Source: Prolixibacteraceae bacterium
Lineage (GTDB): Bacteria > Bacteroidota > Bacteroidia > Bacteroidales > Prolixibacteraceae
Direction of reading: 5' to 3'
DNA: 40,623 nt
Assembly (NCBI GenBank): GCA_027859005.1
Contig: JAQIBQ010000518.1
Location: 1-40,623, forward strand
Shown: piece after piece, positions 5,227-24,181 of the stretch
Layout of the letters: every line of letters starts with the position of its first letter
Numbering within the stretch: position 1 is the first letter of the stretch
Made by a program: the position numbers and the translations under genes
Notes under the pieces: model-generated
Told to the model about the DNA's origin: nothing
What the model saw: the letters and a program-made list of their open reading frames with translations, nothing else
The model's database searches: none

Positions 5227-5623
5227 TTTTTAAGCGTGAATTCGATCTAAGTATTTTAGTTAGCTTGTGATTTGCCTTCAACTAAATGATACTGTTTTTT
5301 TGATCATGAATCATTAAGTCAAATAGTCAATTGTGAAAATATAGATATAGTCTCAAAAAATGTCTTTTTCCCAATAACCAATTCTTCGTCAGTATATTTA
5401 TATCTGGTAAATTATAAATTAATGTCTGAATTACAGTCTTATACTATCTGTTGGTATATCGAACAAGCGTTAATTAAATTTATTCCTCAATCGATTGAGA
5501 AAAATAATATGCCATTTTTTATCTAGATGTTCATTTAATTTTACACCCAATAACTAAATTTTTCCTCTTCTTGTTTAATGTTTTTTCCTAATTTGCTTGT
5601 ATTGTAAAACAACAAAATTCAAC
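5227..5623. other. 397-bp intergenic region upstream of GH43
   Basis: AT-rich, with no credible ORF. It holds one notable signal, the 14-bp perfect palindrome CTCAATCGATTGAG (5486-5499, listed separately). No convincing TAnnTTTG promoter was found; CTAATTTGC at 5589 is a near match. There is no clear terminator after lysA. Confidence 0.6.
5486..5499. promoter_or_regulatory. Candidate LacI-family operator upstream of GH43
   Basis: CTCAATCGATTGAG is a perfect 14-bp palindrome whose core CAATCGATTG fits the general LacI-family operator pattern AAnCGnTT. It lies 125 bp before the GH43 ATG and shares the central CG and AA/TT half-site core with the stronger site in front of lacI (17729-17742). 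Binding by the local LacI protein is inferred. Confidence 0.5.
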
Positions 5624-13387: not shown

Positions 13388-16300
13388 CTATTCAATTTCT
13401 TCTTGTTCTCTTTTATTTTTAATGGCTTGTACATATTCGGTTGGGGTTTTCCCAAACTCTTTACTGAAGCATTTACTGAAGTATTTAGGGTCGCTAAATC
13501 CAACCATGTAGGCAACTTCGGCAATTTGGAAATGTTCCTTTTCTAATATTTGAGCAGCTCTTTTTAGTCGGTGGGTTTTCACAAATTCTACTAATGACAT
13601 TTTGGTTAACGATTTCACTTTTTTAAGTACCGTTGAATGGCTAAGGTTCATTTTCTCAACCATTGCAGTAACATCAAAATCGGCTTCAGATAAATGCTCG
13701 TCAATCACCTCATTCATTTTTGTAAGAAACTTCTCGTCGTTCGAAGAAATTTGAATATCGCGTGGTTGTAGTAATATTTGTTTGCTAAATATATCAACCA
13801 GAAGTTTGCGTGTTGAAAGCAATTGTTCTATTTGTGATTTAAGTACGTCAATTTTAAAGGGTTTGCTAACGTATAAATCGGCACCACTTTTATACCCTTC
13901 TATTTTTGCTTCGTCGGCAGCTTTTGCAGTTAAGAGTATAATGGGAATGTGTCTTGTTTTGTCGTTTTGTTTTAAATTCTGGCACAATTCAATGCCATCT
14001 GTATTGGGCATCATCACATCCGAAATAATTAGTTTAGGTAGAATTTCAAGTGCCTTCTCGCAACCTTTTTGTCCATCGTACGCAACACTTACGTTGTAAT
14101 TTTCGGAAAGGTTGCGTGCAAGGTAGTCGCTCAGATCTTTATCGTCTTCGACCACTAACAACGAAGGTAAGTCTTTGCTTTTTCCTTCATTTATATTTGA
14201 ATTGCTTTGGTGCTCAAAATCTTCGGTCAAATTATTTAAAGCCGTTTCAGGGTGTATGGTTTGAGCCGCAATCTGACTTTCTTTTACATGTTCATCGCCA
14301 ACAGGTAAATAGAATGTAAACGTAGAGCCTTCGCCTATTTTGCTGTGGGTTTCGATTTTACCTTTCAATAAATCGATGTATTCTTTTACAATTGATAACC
14401 CAATTCCTGAGCCTGCTAACTCCTTTTTAGGTTTATGTTTGCTTTGGTAAAAACGGTGGAAAATGGTTTGTATTTCGTCGCTTGGTATGCCAGGCCCGGT
14501 ATCCGAAACTTCAATGCAATACCATTGTTTATTTTCTTTTGACTCTTTCTTTTTCCAACGTTCAATTTTACTCGTTTCTGGGACATGTTTGAAAATGCGA
14601 ATCGTAATTTGTCCTTTCGAAGGAGTAAATTTGTACGCATTCGAAATTACATTGTATATAGCTGTAGTTAACAATTCTGAATCGACCCAAAATTTTTCAT
14701 CCTCGTTAAGTTCTGAATTAAAACGTAGGGTAATTTCTTTATTCAGCGCTTTTTGAAGGAAGAAACCTGTAATTTCCTTTAAAAATTTAACCACATTCAC
14801 TTCAGAGTATTGAGGCTCAATTCCACCTTTGTCAATTTTTCGAAGTTGTAATAATTGGTTGGTTAGTTTTAATAAACGATTGACGTTTTTAGAGACCAAT
14901 TGTAGACTGTTTTTTGATTTTTCATCAATGTTTCCTTTTGAAATTACATCTTCTAAAGGGTTGCTGATGAGCGTTAATGGAGTTCTGATTTCATGCGAAA
15001 TATTGGTGAAGAATCGCATTTTAGCTTCGGTATTTTCAATCAAATTTGAACGTTCAATGTGCTCAATTAATAATCGGTTTTTATCGGATACCCCAATTAG
15101 TGTATAGCGGCGGAAAAGTAGCAGCCCAATTACAGCGATCGCCAAATAAATGGCATATGCCCAAGGATGACGCCAGCTTGGTGGGTTAACTTCAATTATA
15201 AGTTCATTTGGTTTTTCGTTCCAAATTCCATCGTTATTCGAAGCTTTCACTTGAAAAATATAATCGCCTTCCCATAGGTTTGTATACGTTACTGTATGTT
15301 CATTTGCGTTTAAATACCTCCATTCATCGTTAAATCCTAGAAGGCGATAGGCATAGTGTACACCTTCAAGATTCGCGAAATGCATGGCTGAAAACCCCAA
15401 CGAAAATTCTTTATGTTTGCTGCTAAGTGTAATTTTTTCGGCTAAGGAAATATCTTTTTCTAGAATTACTTTGCCGTTCACTTTTTGCTTGGGCATTACA
15501 ATTGTATTCGATACTTTGAGGGTAGAAATTACTGTATTTGAAGGTTTCGTATTGCTTGTAATTTCAGAAGGGGAGAAGAACGATAATCCGTTAACTCCGC
15601 CAAAAAATAATTTGTTATCTGGCGATGAATAAAAAGCATTGGAATGGAACTCGTTACTTTGGAGGCCATCGTTTGAGTTGTAGTTTTTGAATGTGTTGGT
15701 GTTTTTATTGAACATTGAAAGGCCTTTGGTAGTACTAATCCAAAGGTTTCCATCTCTGTCTTCTTCTATTCCATAAATTAGATTTGCAGCAAGTCCATCG
15801 GCCTCGGTGTACGATTCAAATTTAGCTCTACCTTTTTGTAATTCTTTTAAGGCTAGGGGGTCGGAATATAAATCAAGTCGGTTTAATCCACCACCTGTTC
15901 CAATCCAGATAACATCTTCTGAATCTTGGAATATACAATAAACATCGTTATGTAAAATGCTTTTATCTGAATCGTGTTCAAAGGAAATAAAGTTGTTGTA
16001 GCCTTGTTTAATTAATTCAAGAGGAATAATATTTAATCCACGCCCTTTTGTTCCTACCCACAAATTTCCTCTGTTGTCGTCAAAAATAGAGAGGATAACG
16101 TTGCCACTTAATGTACGTGAGTCGTTAGGCTGATTGGCGTATAAGTTGATTGTATCTTTCTTCGTGTCGATAATTCCAAGACCTTTTCCCCAAGTACCTA
16201 CCCAAATACTTTGCTCTCTATCTTGATGAAGTGCAAAAGGATAACCTCCAGTGTAGTATTGTTTGAAACCTAAATCCTTTCGATATGCTACTAAGCTATT

Positions 16301-17644
16301 GGAGGCAGTTCCAATCCATAATATGTCTTTTTTATCGAGCAGTAATGATATTATTTCGCTTGATGAACGGCCATCACTGTTAGGAATTTCAGGTATATGA
16401 TCAGTAATTATTGTATTGTCGGGTAGGAATTCGAGATAGTTTAAACCATTATAGGCGGCTCCCACCCATACAATATTGTCTTTTCCAGTAATTGCAGTTA
16501 TTAAATTTGATGTGAGGTTACGTCCTGCATTTGAATTATTTTCAAGGTGGTTGAATTTCTTTCTAAATAAATCGAGAGTAACAACACCACGGCTTTCGGT
16601 ACCTAACCATAATACACCCGATCTGTCGATAAGCATTGAGTTAATAATATTATCGCCTAGTTTATTCGACATTGTTTCGTCGTTATTGTATACGGTAAAA
16701 GCTCCATCATTATTGAATGTAATTAAACCCGAACCGCGAGTTGCAACCCACATATTTCCATTGCTATCACATTTTAATCGTTCAATCCAGTTGGCATTTA
16801 ACTTTTTCCATTTAGGATTTGAATTATTGAAAAAATACTTTGAAGTAATTTCTTCACCTTCAATTGTGAGTTTAGCTAATCCTTCTGAAGTTGCTACCCA
16901 TAAGTAGTTGTTGTGATCCCATTCAAGTGCATTTACTTTTGCTTGTATCAGGCTTTCTATGTTCACTTGAGTAAACGATAAATCCTTCGATCTAAAAATG
17001 AAAAGACCTTTAAACGTTCCAATTAAATACGTTTGATTTTGGATCTGTTTTATGGTTATCGCAGAATACATTTCTCGATCGAATGGTAGGATTGAACCTT
17101 TTGGATCGAGGTAAACAGATTTTTTAGAAATATTTGTAAATGTATAACTGAATTTTTTTGATGAGTTTGGAATACCTTTGAATAATCCTTGTGTGGTGCC
17201 TACCCAAATCGATCCATCATCACATTGTTCAACAAAACTTACCGTACCATCGGGCGTTTTAAGATTATCGTAGCGTATAAATTTATTTTCTTCTTTAATA
17301 AATAAATTCAATCCACCTCCACGAGTACCAACAAATAGATTTCCGAGAGAATCTCCAGAAAGGAAAATTATCTCGTTGTTACTAATTGAATTGGGGTTAT
17401 TAAGTTCATTTTTATAGGTCGTAAAGTTATATCCATCCATGCGGTTTAGGCCATCTTTTGTTCCTAACCAAATAAAACCTTGTGCATCTTGAGTAATTGA
17501 AAGTACCGACGATTGAGATAAACCCTTGTGAGTAGAATAGGTATTGAAACGCAAATTTGAAAAAGTTTCTTTTTCAATTCCAAATACAGTAGTTGAAATA
17601 ATGATTAGTACAACAAATGCTAGTAAGGTTTTGACTTTTGACAT
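13388..17644 (-). CDS. Hybrid two-component system regulator (HTCS): sensor kinase, receiver and AraC output in one protein
   Basis: A one-protein signalling chain of 1418 residues from ATG 17644 (the track's TTG at 17674 is rejected because it overlaps the -7 element and ATG 17644 opens a clean signal sequence, MSKVKTLLAFVVLIIIS). Order: periplasmic two-component propeller repeats (about 30-735; many FIWLGTKDGLNRMDG-like repeats), Y_Y_Y domain (about 740-815), membrane helix (about 825-845), HisKA with the phospho-histidine in ISHEIRTP (about 884), HATPase with DTGPGIP and GSGIGLSIV, REC (about 1165-1280, phospho-Asp in LIISDVMMPNTDG) and AraC-type HTH (about 1310-1415). Known role: senses glycan fragments in the periplasm and activates polysaccharide utilisation genes. 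Target genes here are inferred to be GH43/27/9/31. Confidence 0.95.
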   Translation of the reverse strand: MSKVKTLLAFVVLIIISTTVFGIEKETFSNLRFNTYSTHKGLSQSSVLSITQDAQGFIWLGTKDGLNRMDGYNFTTYKNELNNPNSISNNEIIFLSGDSLGNLFVGTRGGGLNLFIKEENKFIRYDNLKTPDGTVSFVEQCDDGSIWVGTTQGLFKGIPNSSKKFSYTFTNISKKSVYLDPKGSILPFDREMYSAITIKQIQNQTYLIGTFKGLFIFRSKDLSFTQVNIESLIQAKVNALEWDHNNYLWVATSEGLAKLTIEGEEITSKYFFNNSNPKWKKLNANWIERLKCDSNGNMWVATRGSGLITFNNDGAFTVYNNDETMSNKLGDNIINSMLIDRSGVLWLGTESRGVVTLDLFRKKFNHLENNSNAGRNLTSNLITAITGKDNIVWVGAAYNGLNYLEFLPDNTIITDHIPEIPNSDGRSSSEIISLLLDKKDILWIGTASNSLVAYRKDLGFKQYYTGGYPFALHQDREQSIWVGTWGKGLGIIDTKKDTINLYANQPNDSRTLSGNVILSIFDDNRGNLWVGTKGRGLNIIPLELIKQGYNNFISFEHDSDKSILHNDVYCIFQDSEDVIWIGTGGGLNRLDLYSDPLALKELQKGRAKFESYTEADGLAANLIYGIEEDRDGNLWISTTKGLSMFNKNTNTFKNYNSNDGLQSNEFHSNAFYSSPDNKLFFGGVNGLSFFSPSEITSNTKPSNTVISTLKVSNTIVMPKQKVNGKVILEKDISLAEKITLSSKHKEFSLGFSAMHFANLEGVHYAYRLLGFNDEWRYLNANEHTVTYTNLWEGDYIFQVKASNNDGIWNEKPNELIIEVNPPSWRHPWAYAIYLAIAVIGLLLFRRYTLIGVSDKNRLLIEHIERSNLIENTEAKMRFFTNISHEIRTPLTLISNPLEDVISKGNIDEKSKNSLQLVSKNVNRLLKLTNQLLQLRKIDKGGIEPQYSEVNVVKFLKEITGFFLQKALNKEITLRFNSELNEDEKFWVDSELLTTAIYNVISNAYKFTPSKGQITIRIFKHVPETSKIERWKKKESKENKQWYCIEVSDTGPGIPSDEIQTIFHRFYQSKHKPKKELAGSGIGLSIVKEYIDLLKGKIETHSKIGEGSTFTFYLPVGDEHVKESQIAAQTIHPETALNNLTEDFEHQSNSNINEGKSKDLPSLLVVEDDKDLSDYLARNLSENYNVSVAYDGQKGCEKALEILPKLIISDVMMPNTDGIELCQNLKQNDKTRHIPIILLTAKAADEAKIEGYKSGADLYVSKPFKIDVLKSQIEQLLSTRKLLVDIFSKQILLQPRDIQISSNDEKFLTKMNEVIDEHLSEADFDVTAMVEKMNLSHSTVLKKVKSLTKMSLVEFVKTHRLKRAAQILEKEHFQIAEVAYMVGFSDPKYFSKCFSKEFGKTPTEYVQAIKNKREQEEIE

Positions 17645-17671: not shown

Positions 17672-17679
17672 CAAAGATA
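17672..17679 (-). promoter_or_regulatory. -7 element of the HTCS gene
   Basis: On the minus strand it reads TATCTTTG, a full match to TAnnTTTG, about 28 bp before ATG 17644. This gives a short leader and decides between the two possible starts. No clear -33 TTG. Confidence 0.6.
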
Positions 17680-17728
17680 AAGAATTATAAGAGAGTAATA
17701 AGCCTAAAGATAAAATGAATAAGTTTCA

Positions 17729-17742
17729 TGCAACCGATTGCA
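17729..17742. promoter_or_regulatory. LacI-family operator overlapping the lacI promoter
   Basis: TGCAACCGATTGCA matches the LacI-family consensus TGnAAnCGnTTnCA at every fixed position; only positions 6 and 9 break the dyad. It overlaps the -33 TTG (17738-17740) of the lacI promoter and lies 50 bp from the divergent HTCS -7 element, so a bound repressor could silence its own operon and affect the HTCS. The binder is most simply the adjacent LacI protein (inference). Confidence 0.75.
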
Positions 17743-17769
17743 GATAATAAAAGTGTTTGTGTATATTTG
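17738..17769 (+). promoter_or_regulatory. Promoter of the lacI-GH67-uxuBA operon
   Basis: TTG (17738-17740), a 21-bp spacer and TATATTTG (17762-17769) fit the Bacteroidota -33/-7 promoter. Transcription would start near 17775, about 20 nt before the TTG start codon of lacI. Confidence 0.7.
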
Positions 17770-17794: not shown

Positions 17795-18808
17795 TTGAGT
17801 AGAGAAGTAACTATATACGATATTGCAAAAGAACTTAATCTATCGGCATCTACTGTTAGTAGAGCCCTTAAGGATAATCCTGCAATTAATAATGAAACCA
17901 AGAAACGTGTCAGATCTTGTGCTGAAAAAATGGGGTATCGGAGCAATACATTTGCAAGTAACCTACGTACACAACGAACGAACACAATTGGTGTAATTGT
18001 ACCTCGACTTGATAGTAACTTTATGTCGGCATGTTTGGCAGGTATGGAAGAAGTTGTTAACGACAAGGGGTATAATATGATTATCACCCAATCGCATGAG
18101 TCATTAGCAAAGGAGGCTCAAAATGCAATAACAATGTTCAATAATAGAGTTGATGGCGTAATTGCTTCTTTAACCATAGAGGATAATAATATTGATCATT
18201 TCAGTCGATTTAAAGATAAAAATGTGCCAGTTGTTTTTTTCGACCGAGTACCAGAGAAAACAAATAATGCTTGTTTTGTAATTGAAAATCATAAAGCGGC
18301 TTATACTGCAACAAAGCATCTGATTGAGCAAGGCTGTAAAAACATATTGCATCTAACACTCAAAACAAAATCAAATGTTTACCTCGACCGAATTGAAGGT
18401 TTTAAAACAGCTATTAATGAGGCAAATTGTAGTGGCGATATAGTTTATTTGGAGAGTTTGAATTTAGAATTTGGCGAAAAAATAATTCCTCAAATTCTAA
18501 AAAGGAAGGAGCAACCCGATGGTATTTTTGTTGCTAACGATATGGCTGCAGTTGGCTGTCTATTGGCTCTTCAAAAAGAAGGCATTAACGTTCCAAATGA
18601 TATTGCAATTGTTGGTTTTAACAACGATCCTGTATCTACCATTGTGCATCCTCAACTAACTACAATTTCTTATTCTGGTAAAGATGCAGGTATTCTGGCA
18701 GCTAAAAGTTTAATTGATTATTTAAACAACGAGAGTGAGGAAGGAAGTTCAAAAAAGGTTGTACTCAATACTCAATTGATTGAGAGAGCTTCATCAAAAA
18801 GAAAATAA
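17795..18808 (+). CDS. LacI-family transcriptional repressor
   Basis: A 337-residue LacI/GalR regulator. The N-terminal HTH with hinge helix is clear (VTIYDIAKELNLSASTVSRALKDNP, residues 5-29), followed by a periplasmic-binding-protein-like effector domain (about 60-330; IGVIVPRLDSNF, DGIFVANDMAAVGCL, VGFNNDP). The start must be TTG 17795 (or ATT 17792): a stop (TGA 17789-17791) closes the frame just upstream, and the nearby ATG 17788 opens only a four-codon ORF (MNFE) in another frame. Next in the operon is GH67, 19 bp downstream, then the uxuB-like and uxuA genes, so the inducer is probably a glucuronate-pathway or xylo-oligosaccharide compound (inference). An operator-like palindrome overlaps its own promoter. 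Confidence 0.92.
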   Translation: MSREVTIYDIAKELNLSASTVSRALKDNPAINNETKKRVRSCAEKMGYRSNTFASNLRTQRTNTIGVIVPRLDSNFMSACLAGMEEVVNDKGYNMIITQSHESLAKEAQNAITMFNNRVDGVIASLTIEDNNIDHFSRFKDKNVPVVFFDRVPEKTNNACFVIENHKAAYTATKHLIEQGCKNILHLTLKTKSNVYLDRIEGFKTAINEANCSGDIVYLESLNLEFGEKIIPQILKRKEQPDGIFVANDMAAVGCLLALQKEGINVPNDIAIVGFNNDPVSTIVHPQLTTISYSGKDAGILAAKSLIDYLNNESEEGSSKKVVLNTQLIERASSKRK

Positions 18809-18827: not shown

Positions 18828-20972
18828 ATGAAAAGCTTTAAGTTTTTGTCGCTTTTTATCATAGCGATATTATCTTTTTTACTTTGTAATGCTGAAGATG
18901 GTTACGATCTTTGGTTAAGGTATGTTCCTATTGAGAATGCTCAACTTTTAAGTAGCTATCAAAGTAAATTGCAAAGTGTTGCTGTAACCGGTAACTCATC
19001 AACATGCAATGTAATTAAAGATGAAATAGCTAAAGGCTTCTCAGGACTGTTAAAACTCGACATTGAAGTTTCAGATACATGGGACAAGCAAAGTATACTG
19101 ATAGGTACTTCTGCTACTTCTACTGAAATAAGTCAATTGAATATTACCAACGATCTTTCAAATGAGGGATATGTAATTTCAACTCAGGAAATAAATAATA
19201 CTAAAAGCATAGTTATAGCAGCAAAAACCGATGTGGGTACTTTGTATGGTACTTTTCATTTTTTAAAACTTTTGCAAACGAATCAATCAATCGACAATTT
19301 AAATATTGTTGAAAATCCTAAAACAACACATCGATTATTAAATCATTGGGACAACCTTGATCGAACAGTTGAGCGTGGATATGCTGGATTCTCAATTTGG
19401 GATTGGCATAAATTGCCAGACTATATCGATCCTCGATACAAAGATTATGCTCGCGCAAATGCTTCAATTGGAATTAACGGTTCGGTAGTTAGTAATGTAA
19501 ACTCAAATGCATTAATACTAACGCCTCAGTATTTGAATAAATTAAATGGTTTGGCTAAAGTTTTTCGGCCCTATGGAATAAAAGTATACTTAACAGCTCG
19601 CTTTAGTGCACCTATTGAAATTGGTGGATTGAAAACGGCCGATCCATTAAACAGAGAAGTTCAGCAATGGTGGCAATCAAAAGTGGATGAAATATATTCT
19701 ATCATTCCCGACTTTGGTGGTTTCTTGGTTAAAGCAAATTCCGAAGGTCAACCTGGGCCTCAAGATTACGACCGGTCACATGCCGATGGTGCCAATATGT
19801 TGGCAAAAGCAGTAGGTAAATATGGTGGTGTTATAATGTGGAGAGCTTTTGTTTATAGTCATGAAGTGCCAGACGATAGAGCCAAACAAGCCTACGCAGA
19901 GTTTAAACCACTTGATGACGAATTTATGGACAATGTTTTTGTTCAAACAAAAAATGGTGCCATCGATTTTCAACCACGCGAACCATTTCATCCTTTGTTC
20001 GGTGCTCTCAAAAAAACACCGATTATGATGGAATTTCAAATCACGCAAGAATACCTTGGTTGTGCTACACACTTGGTTTATTTGGCTCCACTCTATAAAG
20101 AAGTGTTAGATGCAGATACCTATGCCAAAGGAAAAGGGTCAACGGTTTCGAAAGTAATTGATGGTTCACTTTATAACCATAAATATTCAGGAATGGCTGG
20201 CGTTTCAAACATAGGAAACGACAGAAACTGGACCGGTCACCCCTTTGCTCAATCGAACTGGTATGCATTTGGTCGTTTGGCCTGGAATCCCGAATTAACT
20301 TCTGAAAAAATTGCTGATGAATGGTTGCGAATGACCTTTACCAATAATTCAACTTTTATTCAAACAGTAAAACCTTTAATGTTGAATTCACGCGAATCTA
20401 CAGTGAATTATATGACTCCACTTGGACTCCATCATCAAATGGCTTGGGATCATCATTGGGGACCTGGCCCTTGGGTGAATATTGGTCGTCCAGACTGGAC
20501 TTCGAAATATTACCATCGTGCCGATTCTCTTGGTATTGGTTTTGATCGTTCTTCTACTGGAAGCAATGCTACTGAACAATATTTTCCAGAAGTACGCGAT
20601 CGATTTAACAATGTTGAAACTTGTCCTGAAGAATTTTTGTTATGGTTCCATCATTTGCCTTGGGATTATAAAATGAAATCGGGAAATAGTTTATGGAACG
20701 AACTCTGTGAAAAGTATTATCAGGGTGCTGCCGATGTTCAACAAATGCAGAGAGATTGGGATAGCATTGAAGCTTTGGTTGACGAAGAACAATATGATCA
20801 TGTAAAACAATTGCTTGCAATTCAGGTAAATGAAGCTATTTGGTGGCGTAATTCAATGTTGTTGTATTTTCAACAATACTCAAAGTTGCCTATTCCAGAG
20901 AAGTATGAAAAGCCAACTAAAAGCTTAGAATATTATCAAAATTTAAAATTCCATTTTGTGCCGGGTATCTAA
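18828..20972 (+). CDS. GH67 alpha-glucuronidase
   Basis: A 714-residue secreted enzyme starting at ATG 18828; the track's earlier start (18780) lies inside lacI and is rejected because the signal peptide MKSFKFLSLFIIAILSFLLCNA begins at the ATG. Three GH67 domains are present: N-terminal alpha/beta (about 25-165), the central barrel (about 170-490) and the C-terminal helical domain. Catalytic residues align with the Cellvibrio enzyme by motif and spacing: E306 in VKANSEGQPGP (acid) and D380 (KNGAIDFQPREP) plus E408 (QITQEYLG) as the base pair, 74 and 28 residues apart. It removes (4-O-methyl)-glucuronic acid from the non-reducing end of xylo-oligosaccharides. It feeds the next two genes, which process the glucuronate route. 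Confidence 0.95.
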   Translation: MKSFKFLSLFIIAILSFLLCNAEDGYDLWLRYVPIENAQLLSSYQSKLQSVAVTGNSSTCNVIKDEIAKGFSGLLKLDIEVSDTWDKQSILIGTSATSTEISQLNITNDLSNEGYVISTQEINNTKSIVIAAKTDVGTLYGTFHFLKLLQTNQSIDNLNIVENPKTTHRLLNHWDNLDRTVERGYAGFSIWDWHKLPDYIDPRYKDYARANASIGINGSVVSNVNSNALILTPQYLNKLNGLAKVFRPYGIKVYLTARFSAPIEIGGLKTADPLNREVQQWWQSKVDEIYSIIPDFGGFLVKANSEGQPGPQDYDRSHADGANMLAKAVGKYGGVIMWRAFVYSHEVPDDRAKQAYAEFKPLDDEFMDNVFVQTKNGAIDFQPREPFHPLFGALKKTPIMMEFQITQEYLGCATHLVYLAPLYKEVLDADTYAKGKGSTVSKVIDGSLYNHKYSGMAGVSNIGNDRNWTGHPFAQSNWYAFGRLAWNPELTSEKIADEWLRMTFTNNSTFIQTVKPLMLNSRESTVNYMTPLGLHHQMAWDHHWGPGPWVNIGRPDWTSKYYHRADSLGIGFDRSSTGSNATEQYFPEVRDRFNNVETCPEEFLLWFHHLPWDYKMKSGNSLWNELCEKYYQGAADVQQMQRDWDSIEALVDEEQYDHVKQLLAIQVNEAIWWRNSMLLYFQQYSKLPIPEKYEKPTKSLEYYQNLKFHFVPGI

Positions 20973-21105: not shown

Positions 21106-21930
21106 ATGAGTTATATCGATACGCTTTTTGCGTTAGAAGGGAAAGTTGCAGTAATCACTGGTGGAGGAGGCGTATTGGCTTCAGAAATTGGAAGTGGATT
21201 ATCAAAAGCAGTTGTTAAAATTGTGTTTTTAGATATTAACGAAGAAGCTGCAGTTGAAGCTGCAAATCGTATCGTAGAAAAAGGTGGCGAAGCAACAGGC
21301 TTAAAAACAAATGTACTTGAATTAGATGCCCTCAAGGCAACCCGAGATGTTGTACTTGAAAAATACGGGAAGGTAGACCTCTTGTTGAATGCCGCTGGAG
21401 GAAATATGCCAGGAGCAACAATTTCTCCTGATAAAACGATATTCGATTTAGATGTTTCTGATTTAGATAAGGTAACAAGTTTGAATTTCAATGGGACTGT
21501 TTTGCCTTCAATGGTATTTGGCGAAGTAATGGCAAACCAACGCTCAGGTAATATCATTAACATTTCGTCGATGGCAGCTTTACAGTCTATTACACGGGTG
21601 GTTGGCTATTCTGCAGCCAAAGCTGCAGTTTCAAACTTTACATCGTGGATGGCCATGGAACTGGCATTGAAATTCGAAGGATCGGTTCGTGTAAATGCTA
21701 TTGCACCTGGATTCTTTATTGGCAATCAGAACAGAGCCTTACTTACTAATCCCGATGGATCTTATACCGAACGAGGACAGCAAGTAATTAATAAAACTCC
21801 AATGGGACGTTTTGGAAAAGCTAACGAATTGGTTGGTGCAATCATGTTTCTAAGTAGCGAAGCGGCAACTTTTGTAACGGGTGTAGTTTTACCAATTGAT
21901 GGTGGTTTTAGTACCTATAGTGGAGTTTAA
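21106..21930 (+). CDS. SDR-family D-mannonate oxidoreductase (fructuronate reductase)
   Basis: A 274-residue classical short-chain dehydrogenase with the NAD(P)-binding motif TGGGGVLASEIG (18-29), NAAGG (about 94), the serine of NISSMAA (about 152) and the YxxxK pair in VGYSAAKAA (about 167/171). C-terminal PIDGGFSTY is typical. Directly followed by uxuA and preceded by GH67, it most likely interconverts D-fructuronate and D-mannonate, as the SDR-type UxuB (B. subtilis YjmF-like) does; this is unrelated to the long-chain UxuB of E. coli. The substrate is inferred from context and sequence resemblance; a general sugar-acid dehydrogenase role is the alternative. Cytoplasmic. Confidence 0.85.
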   Translation: MSYIDTLFALEGKVAVITGGGGVLASEIGSGLSKAVVKIVFLDINEEAAVEAANRIVEKGGEATGLKTNVLELDALKATRDVVLEKYGKVDLLLNAAGGNMPGATISPDKTIFDLDVSDLDKVTSLNFNGTVLPSMVFGEVMANQRSGNIINISSMAALQSITRVVGYSAAKAAVSNFTSWMAMELALKFEGSVRVNAIAPGFFIGNQNRALLTNPDGSYTERGQQVINKTPMGRFGKANELVGAIMFLSSEAATFVTGVVLPIDGGFSTYSGV

Positions 21931-21934
21931 AAAC

Positions 21935-21995
21935 AAGTCATTAGCCAATAGTCATTAGAAAATAACTAATGACCATTGACCATTGACCAATGACT
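21935..21995. repeat. Tandem and inverted GTCATTAG/ATTGACC repeat before uxuA
   Basis: The gap holds direct copies GTCATTAG...GTCATTAG, the inverted arm CTAATGAC and tandem ATTGACC-ATTGACC-AATGAC. It can fold into a TCATTAG/CTAATGA hairpin. Such word-like repeats are common between Bacteroidota genes. Its last copy supplies the ATG at 21990 used by the track, so ATG 22002 is the better uxuA start. Confidence 0.6.
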
Positions 21996-22001
21996 AAAAA
22001 T

Positions 22002-23186
22002 ATGAAATTTATTTATTCGTGGCGATGGTTTGGTCCAAACGATCGTATTAAACTTAATGAAATTCGTCAGGCGGGTGCAACTGGAATTGTTTCGGCTTTG
22101 CATCAAATACCTGTTGGCGATGTGTGGTCTAAAGAAGCCATTCTAAATAGAAAGAAAGAAATAGAAGATGCAGGTCTTACTTGGCAAGTAGTGGAAAGTT
22201 TGCCAGTAAGTGAAGACATCAAAAAGATGAGTGGCAACCATTTGCTCCATATCGAAAACTATAAAACATCTATTAAAAATTTGGCAGAATGTGGATTAAA
22301 TACCATCTGTTATAATTTTATGCCAATACTTGACTGGTCTAGAACCAAACTTAAGCTGGATGTTGGAGATGGTACTTATACTTCGGGTTTTGAATTAGCC
22401 ATGTTTGCTGCTTTCGATATTTTCATTTTAGAACGAGAAAATGCCAAAAATGATTATTCAGAAGAGGTAATAGCTAAAGCACAAGAATACCTTTTCAATC
22501 TCGATGATGCGAAAGTTGCAGAATTAAAAGATACTATTTTATACGGATTGCCTGGTTCCTTAGAAGCATATACACTTGAAGAGTTTCGAGCCATGCTCAA
22601 TACCTACAAAGGAATTGATAGACCAAAACTCAAAGCACATTTGAGTTCTTTCCTAAATCAAGTTGTTCCAATTGCTGAAGCTAATAATGTGAAAATGGCA
22701 GTACATCCCGACGATCCACCATGGAATTTGCTAGGATTGCCGCGAATTGTAAGTACCGTTGATGATTTGCAAGAAATTGTTGAAATGATTAAATCACCAT
22801 CGAACGGAATTACATTGTGTACTGGTTCGTTAGGAGTTGGACATTTTAACAAGTTACCTGAAATTGTAAAAGCTCTTGCTCCCAACATTCACTTTGTTCA
22901 TTTACGAAATGTGGTACGAGATAGTGACTTGAATTTTCAGGAAGATACTTTTTTTGAAGGCGATATTGATATGATAGCAACGGTAAAAGAATTGATTAAA
23001 GAAGGGAAACGCCGCGAAGCCGAAACCGGAGAACAATGGGTTGTGCCTTTGCGCCCCGATCATGGTCATCAGATGCTGGCCGATTTGGGTCAAGAAAATT
23101 ATCCGGGATACAGCCTTTACGGTAGAATGAAAAATTTAGCTGAAATTAAAGGCCTTACTTTAGGTGTTATCAATCTGATGAAATAA
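22002..23186 (+). CDS. uxuA: Mannonate dehydratase
   Basis: A 394-residue TIM-barrel metal-dependent enzyme that dehydrates D-mannonate to 2-keto-3-deoxy-D-gluconate in the cytoplasm. The N-terminus FIYSWRWFGPNDRIKLNEIRQAGATGIVSALHQIPVGDVW is characteristic of UxuA. The active-site region shows MAVHPDDPPW, HFVHLRNV, EGDIDM and LRPDHGHQM, with the metal-binding His/Cys/Asp set. The length matches the family (about 390-400). The start is set at ATG 22002 because the in-frame ATG 21990 belongs to an intergenic repeat. Last gene of the lacI-GH67-SDR-uxuA run; a hairpin follows. UxaC and KDG kinase, needed to complete the pathway, are not in this window. Confidence 0.95.
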   Translation: MKFIYSWRWFGPNDRIKLNEIRQAGATGIVSALHQIPVGDVWSKEAILNRKKEIEDAGLTWQVVESLPVSEDIKKMSGNHLLHIENYKTSIKNLAECGLNTICYNFMPILDWSRTKLKLDVGDGTYTSGFELAMFAAFDIFILERENAKNDYSEEVIAKAQEYLFNLDDAKVAELKDTILYGLPGSLEAYTLEEFRAMLNTYKGIDRPKLKAHLSSFLNQVVPIAEANNVKMAVHPDDPPWNLLGLPRIVSTVDDLQEIVEMIKSPSNGITLCTGSLGVGHFNKLPEIVKALAPNIHFVHLRNVVRDSDLNFQEDTFFEGDIDMIATVKELIKEGKRREAETGEQWVVPLRPDHGHQMLADLGQENYPGYSLYGRMKNLAEIKGLTLGVINLMK

Positions 23187-23475: not shown

Positions 23476-24181
23476 ATGAAAACACTTCTACTATTCGATT
23501 CTTATTTTGGGAATACCGAGAAAATTGCTAGAGCAATAGCTGAGGCATTTATTGCTGAATCAGATTTTGTAATTAAACGAAGCAGCGATGTAACTGCCAA
23601 TGAGCTTTACGACTAACCTGAGTTCGATTTAAATTTTCGAATTCAGATTGAAATAAAAAGCTGATATACAAGGCATTTTTTTAAGGAATAGCGAGCTATT
23701 GCGAAAAAAAATAACGTAGGAGATCAGGTTTTTATTCAAAGATTAGATTTTATCGCTTATAAACAGCAATCTTCTTCCTGTAAATCACTATTTCTAAGCG
23801 TTCTGAATCAAAAAATTTACGTCGAACTCAGGTTGCTATCAACTCTTAATAGTAGGTTCCCCCACAAGAGGTTTTCAACCCACAGAAGGTATTGCCAAAT
23901 TGATTAAAGCAATACCCAAAGACGCACTTCGAGAAATCAAAATTGCGGCTTTTGATACTCGTATTGCACTAGAAACAATCAATTCAAAGGTTTTAAAGAA
24001 AATAGTACATACTGGAGGTTATGCTTCAAAACCTATTGCCAAAAGATTAGTAAAGAAAGGAGCGCAACAAATTGCTGAACCGGAAGGTTTCATCGTGTTA
24101 GATAACGAAGGACCACTAAAAGAAAATGAACTTACTAGAGCAAAGGCTTGGGGAAAATCAATTTTAGAAAGCTGCAGTTAA
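23476..24181 (+). pseudogene. Flavodoxin-family gene interrupted by a MITE
   Basis: The 5' part (ATG 23476) reads MKTLLLFDSYFGNTEKIARAIAEAF..NELYD and stops at a TAA created by the inserted element. After the 220-bp element the same frame resumes with YQLLIVGSPTRGFQPTEGIA and runs to TAA 24181. Deleting the element plus one CTA copy restores a 160-residue flavodoxin with the FMN phosphate loop (SYFGNTEKIA) and the GSPTRG loop. The track ORF 23900-24181 is only its tail. Its stop codon overlaps the stop of the convergent helicase gene by 3-4 bases. The protein is presumably lost, unless the tail is separately translated. Confidence 0.9.
23615..23834. mobile_element. MITE-like non-coding insertion with 32-bp terminal inverted repeats
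   Basis: The termini AACCTGAGTTCGATTTAAA (left) and its right-hand inverse ending TCGAACTCAGGTT match in 27 of 32 positions (23615-23646 against 23803-23834). A CTA triplet flanks both sides (23613-23615 and 23836-23838) and fits a 3-bp target duplication that, when removed, restores the flavodoxin frame. The interior has no ORF but an off-centre hairpin (AATAGC-GA-GCTATT at 23687-23700 within AAAAAGCTGAT/ATCAGGTTTTT). It must be mobilised by a transposase elsewhere; the IS family is not identified. Confidence 0.88.

Follow-up and report, generated by a model that had tools for sequence, protein, structure and literature searches.

Self-repression of its own operon by a LacI regulator is a well-known, ordinary arrangement. 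Ravcheev and colleagues predicted autoregulation for 72% of LacI-family regulators (PMC4052901), and the sites of this family lie mostly 30–140 bp upstream and are usually even palindromes centered on CG (PMC4052901). UxaR, UxuR, and KdgR form a Bacteroides clade (PMC4052901), and the reconstruction for B. thetaiotaomicron includes a LacI-type UxuR (BT1434) for glucuronate together with a uxuRBA operon (PMC3878776). A LacI-type UxuR2 has also been predicted in Algoriphagus marincola HL-49 (PMC5507952).

We analyzed a 40,623-nucleotide stretch of DNA from a Prolixibacteraceae bacterium (GenBank assembly GCA_027859005.1, contig JAQIBQ010000518.1), hereafter the window, in which a lacI gene is encoded with uxuB and uxuA, as in the UxuR group. 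The same combination, with predicted control of glucuronate use, characterizes Bacteroides UxuR (BT1434) and its uxuRBA operon (PMC3878776, PMC4052901), to which the window lacI is likened by gene context. In contrast to Bacteroides uxuRBA, the window operon has a GH67 gene, the operator recurs at a SusCD-GH115 set, and a hybrid two-component system (HTCS) gene is divergent from lacI. A. marincola HL-49, a member of the Bacteroidetes outside the genus Bacteroides, likewise has a LacI-family protein, UxuR2, for the regulation of hexuronate genes, a likeness by description; the UxuR2 regulon, unlike that of the window, includes a TRAP transporter and GH109 (PMC5507952). As in autoregulated local LacI repressors, the operator lies over the regulator's own promoter, 30–140 bp upstream of the start (PMC4052901), but the divergent neighbor here is an HTCS, which is a Bacteroidetes-type sensor-regulator. 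The main finding thus adds one more autoregulated LacI-type, UxuR-like case to those known, with the less usual hint that, in related species, the predicted site also lies inside the promoter facing the neighboring sensor-kinase gene.

The lacI Operon

The lacI gene (17795..18808, plus strand) encodes a LacI/GalR-family regulator of 337 aa, and its start was set at the TTG at 17795, the in-frame codons before it being ATT and TGA. The protein combines an N-terminal LacI helix-turn-helix (HTH) (PF00356, 43.9 bits for a cut-off of 27) with a C-terminal periplasmic-binding-protein-like sensor domain (PF13377, 95.6 bits; PF00532, 83.7 bits), which is the architecture of the LacI/GalR family, and among solved structures CcpA proteins come closest to it in sequence. 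It is followed on the same strand by genes for a GH67 α-glucuronidase (18828..20972; PF07488, PF07477, PF03648), a uxuB-type D-mannonate oxidoreductase of the SDR type (21106..21930; NF006132, above cut-off), and the mannonate dehydratase UxuA (21990..23186; TIGR00695, PF03786), while uxaC is absent from the window operon. Throughout the genus, contigs of sufficient length show the same order, lacI-GH67-uxuB-uxuA, and so does genome G032, where a GH10 xylanase gene comes next. TTG or GTG is the lacI start in six of the seven congeners, an in-frame ATG lying just upstream in L017, and ATG is the start in two sister-genus copies (L023 and L024). Non-ATG starts perhaps keep repressor levels low.

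The genome contains five lacI genes. One of the others belongs to a second hexuronate cluster (L108; G000:C76:7000-14000), in which this related lacI is found together with uxaC, a PfkB-family kinase, a KDPG-type aldolase, and a second uxuB and uxuA. The operators of this C76 cluster, TGTAAACGGTTGCA and TGCAAACGTTTGCA, are centered differently from that of the window, and cross-binding between the two systems could occur. Within the window itself, a flavodoxin-like reading frame at 23477–24180 is split by an element of about 215 bp (about 23621–23838) with inverted ends (CCTGAGTTCGA/TCGAACTCAGG). Partial copies of this element on contigs C157, C40, C17, C539, and C129 of the same genome make up a pattern as expected of a small mobile repeat.

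A Conserved Predicted Operator over the lacI Promoter

An earlier note, made from the sequence of the window, had described an exact match to the LacI operator consensus at 17729..17742. The match is there (TGCAACCGATTGCA, no strand assigned), and it is an even palindrome centered on CG, as is usual for operators of the LacI/GalR family. What did not hold up is the general consensus as specific evidence. The genome scan that the note had proposed returned 25 sites for it and 7 for a reversed control, and the general consensus was therefore discarded as unspecific, since matching it alone carries little information. The specific form TGCAAYCGRTTGCA, in contrast, occurs twice in this genome and its reversed control not at all. 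In eleven close genomes there are 0–3 copies per genome and none of the reversed control, and in the family 100 of 140 genomes have the motif, again with zero for the reversed pattern. As for TGNAANCGNTTNCA, a pattern scan of the window finds a single exact match, the copy at 17729–17742, when 0.12 per window are expected by chance in first-order random sequence.

The site overlaps a recognizable promoter. A TTG at 17738..17740 (plus strand), within the distal half-site of the operator, corresponds to the −33 element of the lacI operon promoter, and 21 bp further on TATATTTG (17762..17769, plus strand) corresponds to its −7 element; both were assigned from the orthologous gaps, and the pair matches the Bacteroidetes −33/−7 consensus (PMC7366714; PMC9723704). 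The predicted operator covers the −33 element of the lacI-GH67-uxuBA promoter, as had been claimed, and each of the nine orthologous gaps has a promoter of the form TTG-(19-22)-TAnnTTTG that overlaps the operator.

Phylogenetic footprinting lends this arrangement strong support. Most congener assemblies are fragmented and incomplete. The lacI orthologue was located in six other genomes of the genus (L017–L022; 60–67% identity), and exact TGCAAYCGRTTGCA precedes lacI in all six, as well as in two sister-genus genomes (L023 and L024). The distance from operator to first lacI codon is 58–78 bp in all of the orthologous gaps checked, in the genus and in L023/L024. When the seven congener gaps (window included) are anchored on the operator, pairwise identity is 93% in the operator versus 39–43% in the flanks. 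Named relatives, Pontibacter and Albibacterium among them, likewise have the exact operator in the lacI gap, and 14 more distant genomes carry the motif 44–80 bp before a related lacI (about 40–45% identity), whereas the site was not found in the lacI gap of L025, a paralogue with 50% identity. Absence of the motif from orthologous lacI gaps was what the note had named as counting against its reading, and the motif is present in all of those checked. We conclude that 17729–17742 is a real, strongly conserved predicted operator of the LacI type and not a chance match, and the conserved placement over the regulator's own promoter argues strongly for the negative autoregulation of lacI-GH67-uxuBA that had been proposed.

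The Predicted Regulon and Its Control

A second exact copy of the operator in this genome (C239:5639) lies upstream of genes for a SusC-like receptor, SusD, and GH115, and a one-mismatch site (C239:3275) lies upstream of a GH3 gene. In three sister-genus genomes the site is found upstream of a CE15-type glucuronoyl-esterase-like gene (called by Pfam in two genomes and by N-terminal likeness only for L094), and in G034 the operator also faces a GH43 gene. The genes linked to the operator (GH67, uxuBA, SusCD-GH115, glucuronoyl esterases, and GH43) therefore point to the use of glucuronoxylan and glucuronate. The window contains another palindrome, CTCAATCGATTGAG (5488–5501), about 95 bp before a GH43 gene, which has the same CAATCGATTG core as the operator and differs from it at both ends. 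The orthologue of this GH43 gene in G034 adjoins the operator itself.

We consider, with a probability of about 0.88, that a UxuR-like LacI protein acts as a local repressor of glucuronoxylan and glucuronate use, with the site as its primary operator, through which it would repress its own operon. Control of this glucuronoxylan-sugar operon by LacI through the site is almost certain on the genomic evidence. Binding, the inducer, and repression rather than activation are predictions, the direction of control being deduced from operator position only. When no inducer is present, a LacI dimer on 17729–17742 would cover the −33 element and block transcription of lacI-GH67-uxuB-uxuA. An inducer arising from the breakdown of 4-O-methyl-glucuronoxylan or glucuronate would then release LacI. 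The SusC-SusD-GH115 set elsewhere in the genome would probably be repressed by the same protein, and possibly also the adjoining GH3 gene.

The HTCS Side of the Gap

The gap runs from the ATG of the HTCS gene at 17644 (minus strand) to the TTG of lacI at 17795 (plus strand). The HTCS (13388..17644, minus strand) has a sensor propeller (Reg_prop), Y_Y_Y, HisKA, HATPase, receiver, and AraC HTH domains in one chain, as identified with Pfam, which is the make-up of this class. The best candidate for the −7 element of its promoter, TATCTTTG (17672..17679, minus strand), is the nearest full box and lies 49 bp from the operator edge, in line with the 50 bp that had been given for the distance to the divergent HTCS promoter. 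A degenerate sequence facing the HTCS, TATCTTTA (17705..17712, minus strand), which is 18 bp from a TTG inside the operator, is a putative −7 candidate.

Counting the window, six congeners have enough sequence to show the neighboring gene, and in each of them the HTCS gene is divergent from lacI; L022 is cut off by its contig end. In other genera, the named loci with long flanks showed no HTCS beside the orthologous lacI. That the two types of regulator rarely share a gap, as the note had stated, is roughly right: among 37 lacI genes from nine genomes, 2 have a divergent HTCS gene (the window and G077), and in one further case (G069) a lacI is followed by an HTCS gene in tandem. The G077 pair (L106; G077:C1:4271400-4273600) is unrelated, with 38% identity for LacI and 31% for the HTCS, and its gap has no TGNAANCGNTTNCA site. 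We rejected the idea that LacI/HTCS pairs generally share an operator, this only other divergent pair found being without the motif.

Alternative Readings of the Site

A chance match to a loose consensus, which the 25 genome-wide matches (7 for the reversed control) would allow, has a negligible probability in view of the footprinting and of the reversed-pattern controls in 140 genomes, and we rejected it. It is also very unlikely that the site is bound mainly by another LacI paralogue, for instance the protein encoded next to uxaC on C76. With five lacI genes in the genome and related operator sequences on C76 there would be candidates for this role, but TGCAAYCGRTTGCA tracks the orthologue of the window lacI across genera at a fixed position, and the C76 operators have different A.CG.T centers (AACGTT and AACGGT). 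More weight falls on how far control from the site extends. The somewhat favored possibility, at little better than even odds, is that it serves lacI-GH67-uxuBA only and that the HTCS gene is adjacent as a matter of genomic neighborhood. Neither the sequence nor the position of the operator changes where lacI diverges from GH95 (L023) or GH43 (L024), and named relatives, in which the divergent gene is usually SusC-like or uxuBA/uxuA, have related sites before lacI. Furthermore, two gaps (L047 and L050) contain an additional site toward the divergent gene, and the window gap has no counterpart of it.

What control of the lacI operon only leaves unexplained is a conserved −7 box facing the HTCS next to the operator. 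In five of the seven congeners (L018–L022), a TAnnTTTG box is found 9–11 bp from the operator, so that there the operator would cover the −33 regions of both divergent promoters. L023 and L024, whose divergent gene does not encode an HTCS, have no such box. The chance of an abutting box is 0.2–0.7% per gap, or about 2e-11 for at least five of seven if the gaps were independent, a rough guide only, since the gaps descend from a common ancestor and the offset window was picked with the data already in view. These observations, together with the constant presence of an HTCS gene beside lacI in the congeners, speak for joint control, in which LacI on 17729–17742 would also repress the HTCS gene and tie a cytoplasmic sugar-acid signal to an outer sensor. 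Joint control would extend the best explanation rather than oppose it. Against it, the window species and L017 have a degenerate box close by, their full −7 boxes lying 49 and 79 bp away, respectively, the HTCS-facing −33 is weak, only two of the five congeners having a complete TTG at the correct spacing, and there is a single operator, LacI-proximal here and positioned as in gaps without an HTCS. The direct link between repressor and HTCS that the note had proposed is consequently plausible for the genus and no more than suggestive for this species.

Discussion

The likely regulator, its operator, and a small regulon (GH67, uxuBA, SusCD-GH115, and possibly GH3) can now be assigned to glucuronoxylan use in an uncharacterized genus of Bacteroidota. 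For the genus, we tentatively consider, at less than even odds, that a single LacI operator between overlapping back-to-back promoters serves to repress the HTCS gene along with the sugar-acid operon. Damping of the HTCS gene by the operator is possible in the genus because, in most congeners, the operator lies inside the promoter facing it. If real, such a link would be a direct wire from a cytoplasmic sugar-acid repressor to an HTCS, of which no described case was found in the literature searched, and a cytoplasmic sugar-acid signal would set the level of the sensor for the use of outer polysaccharides.
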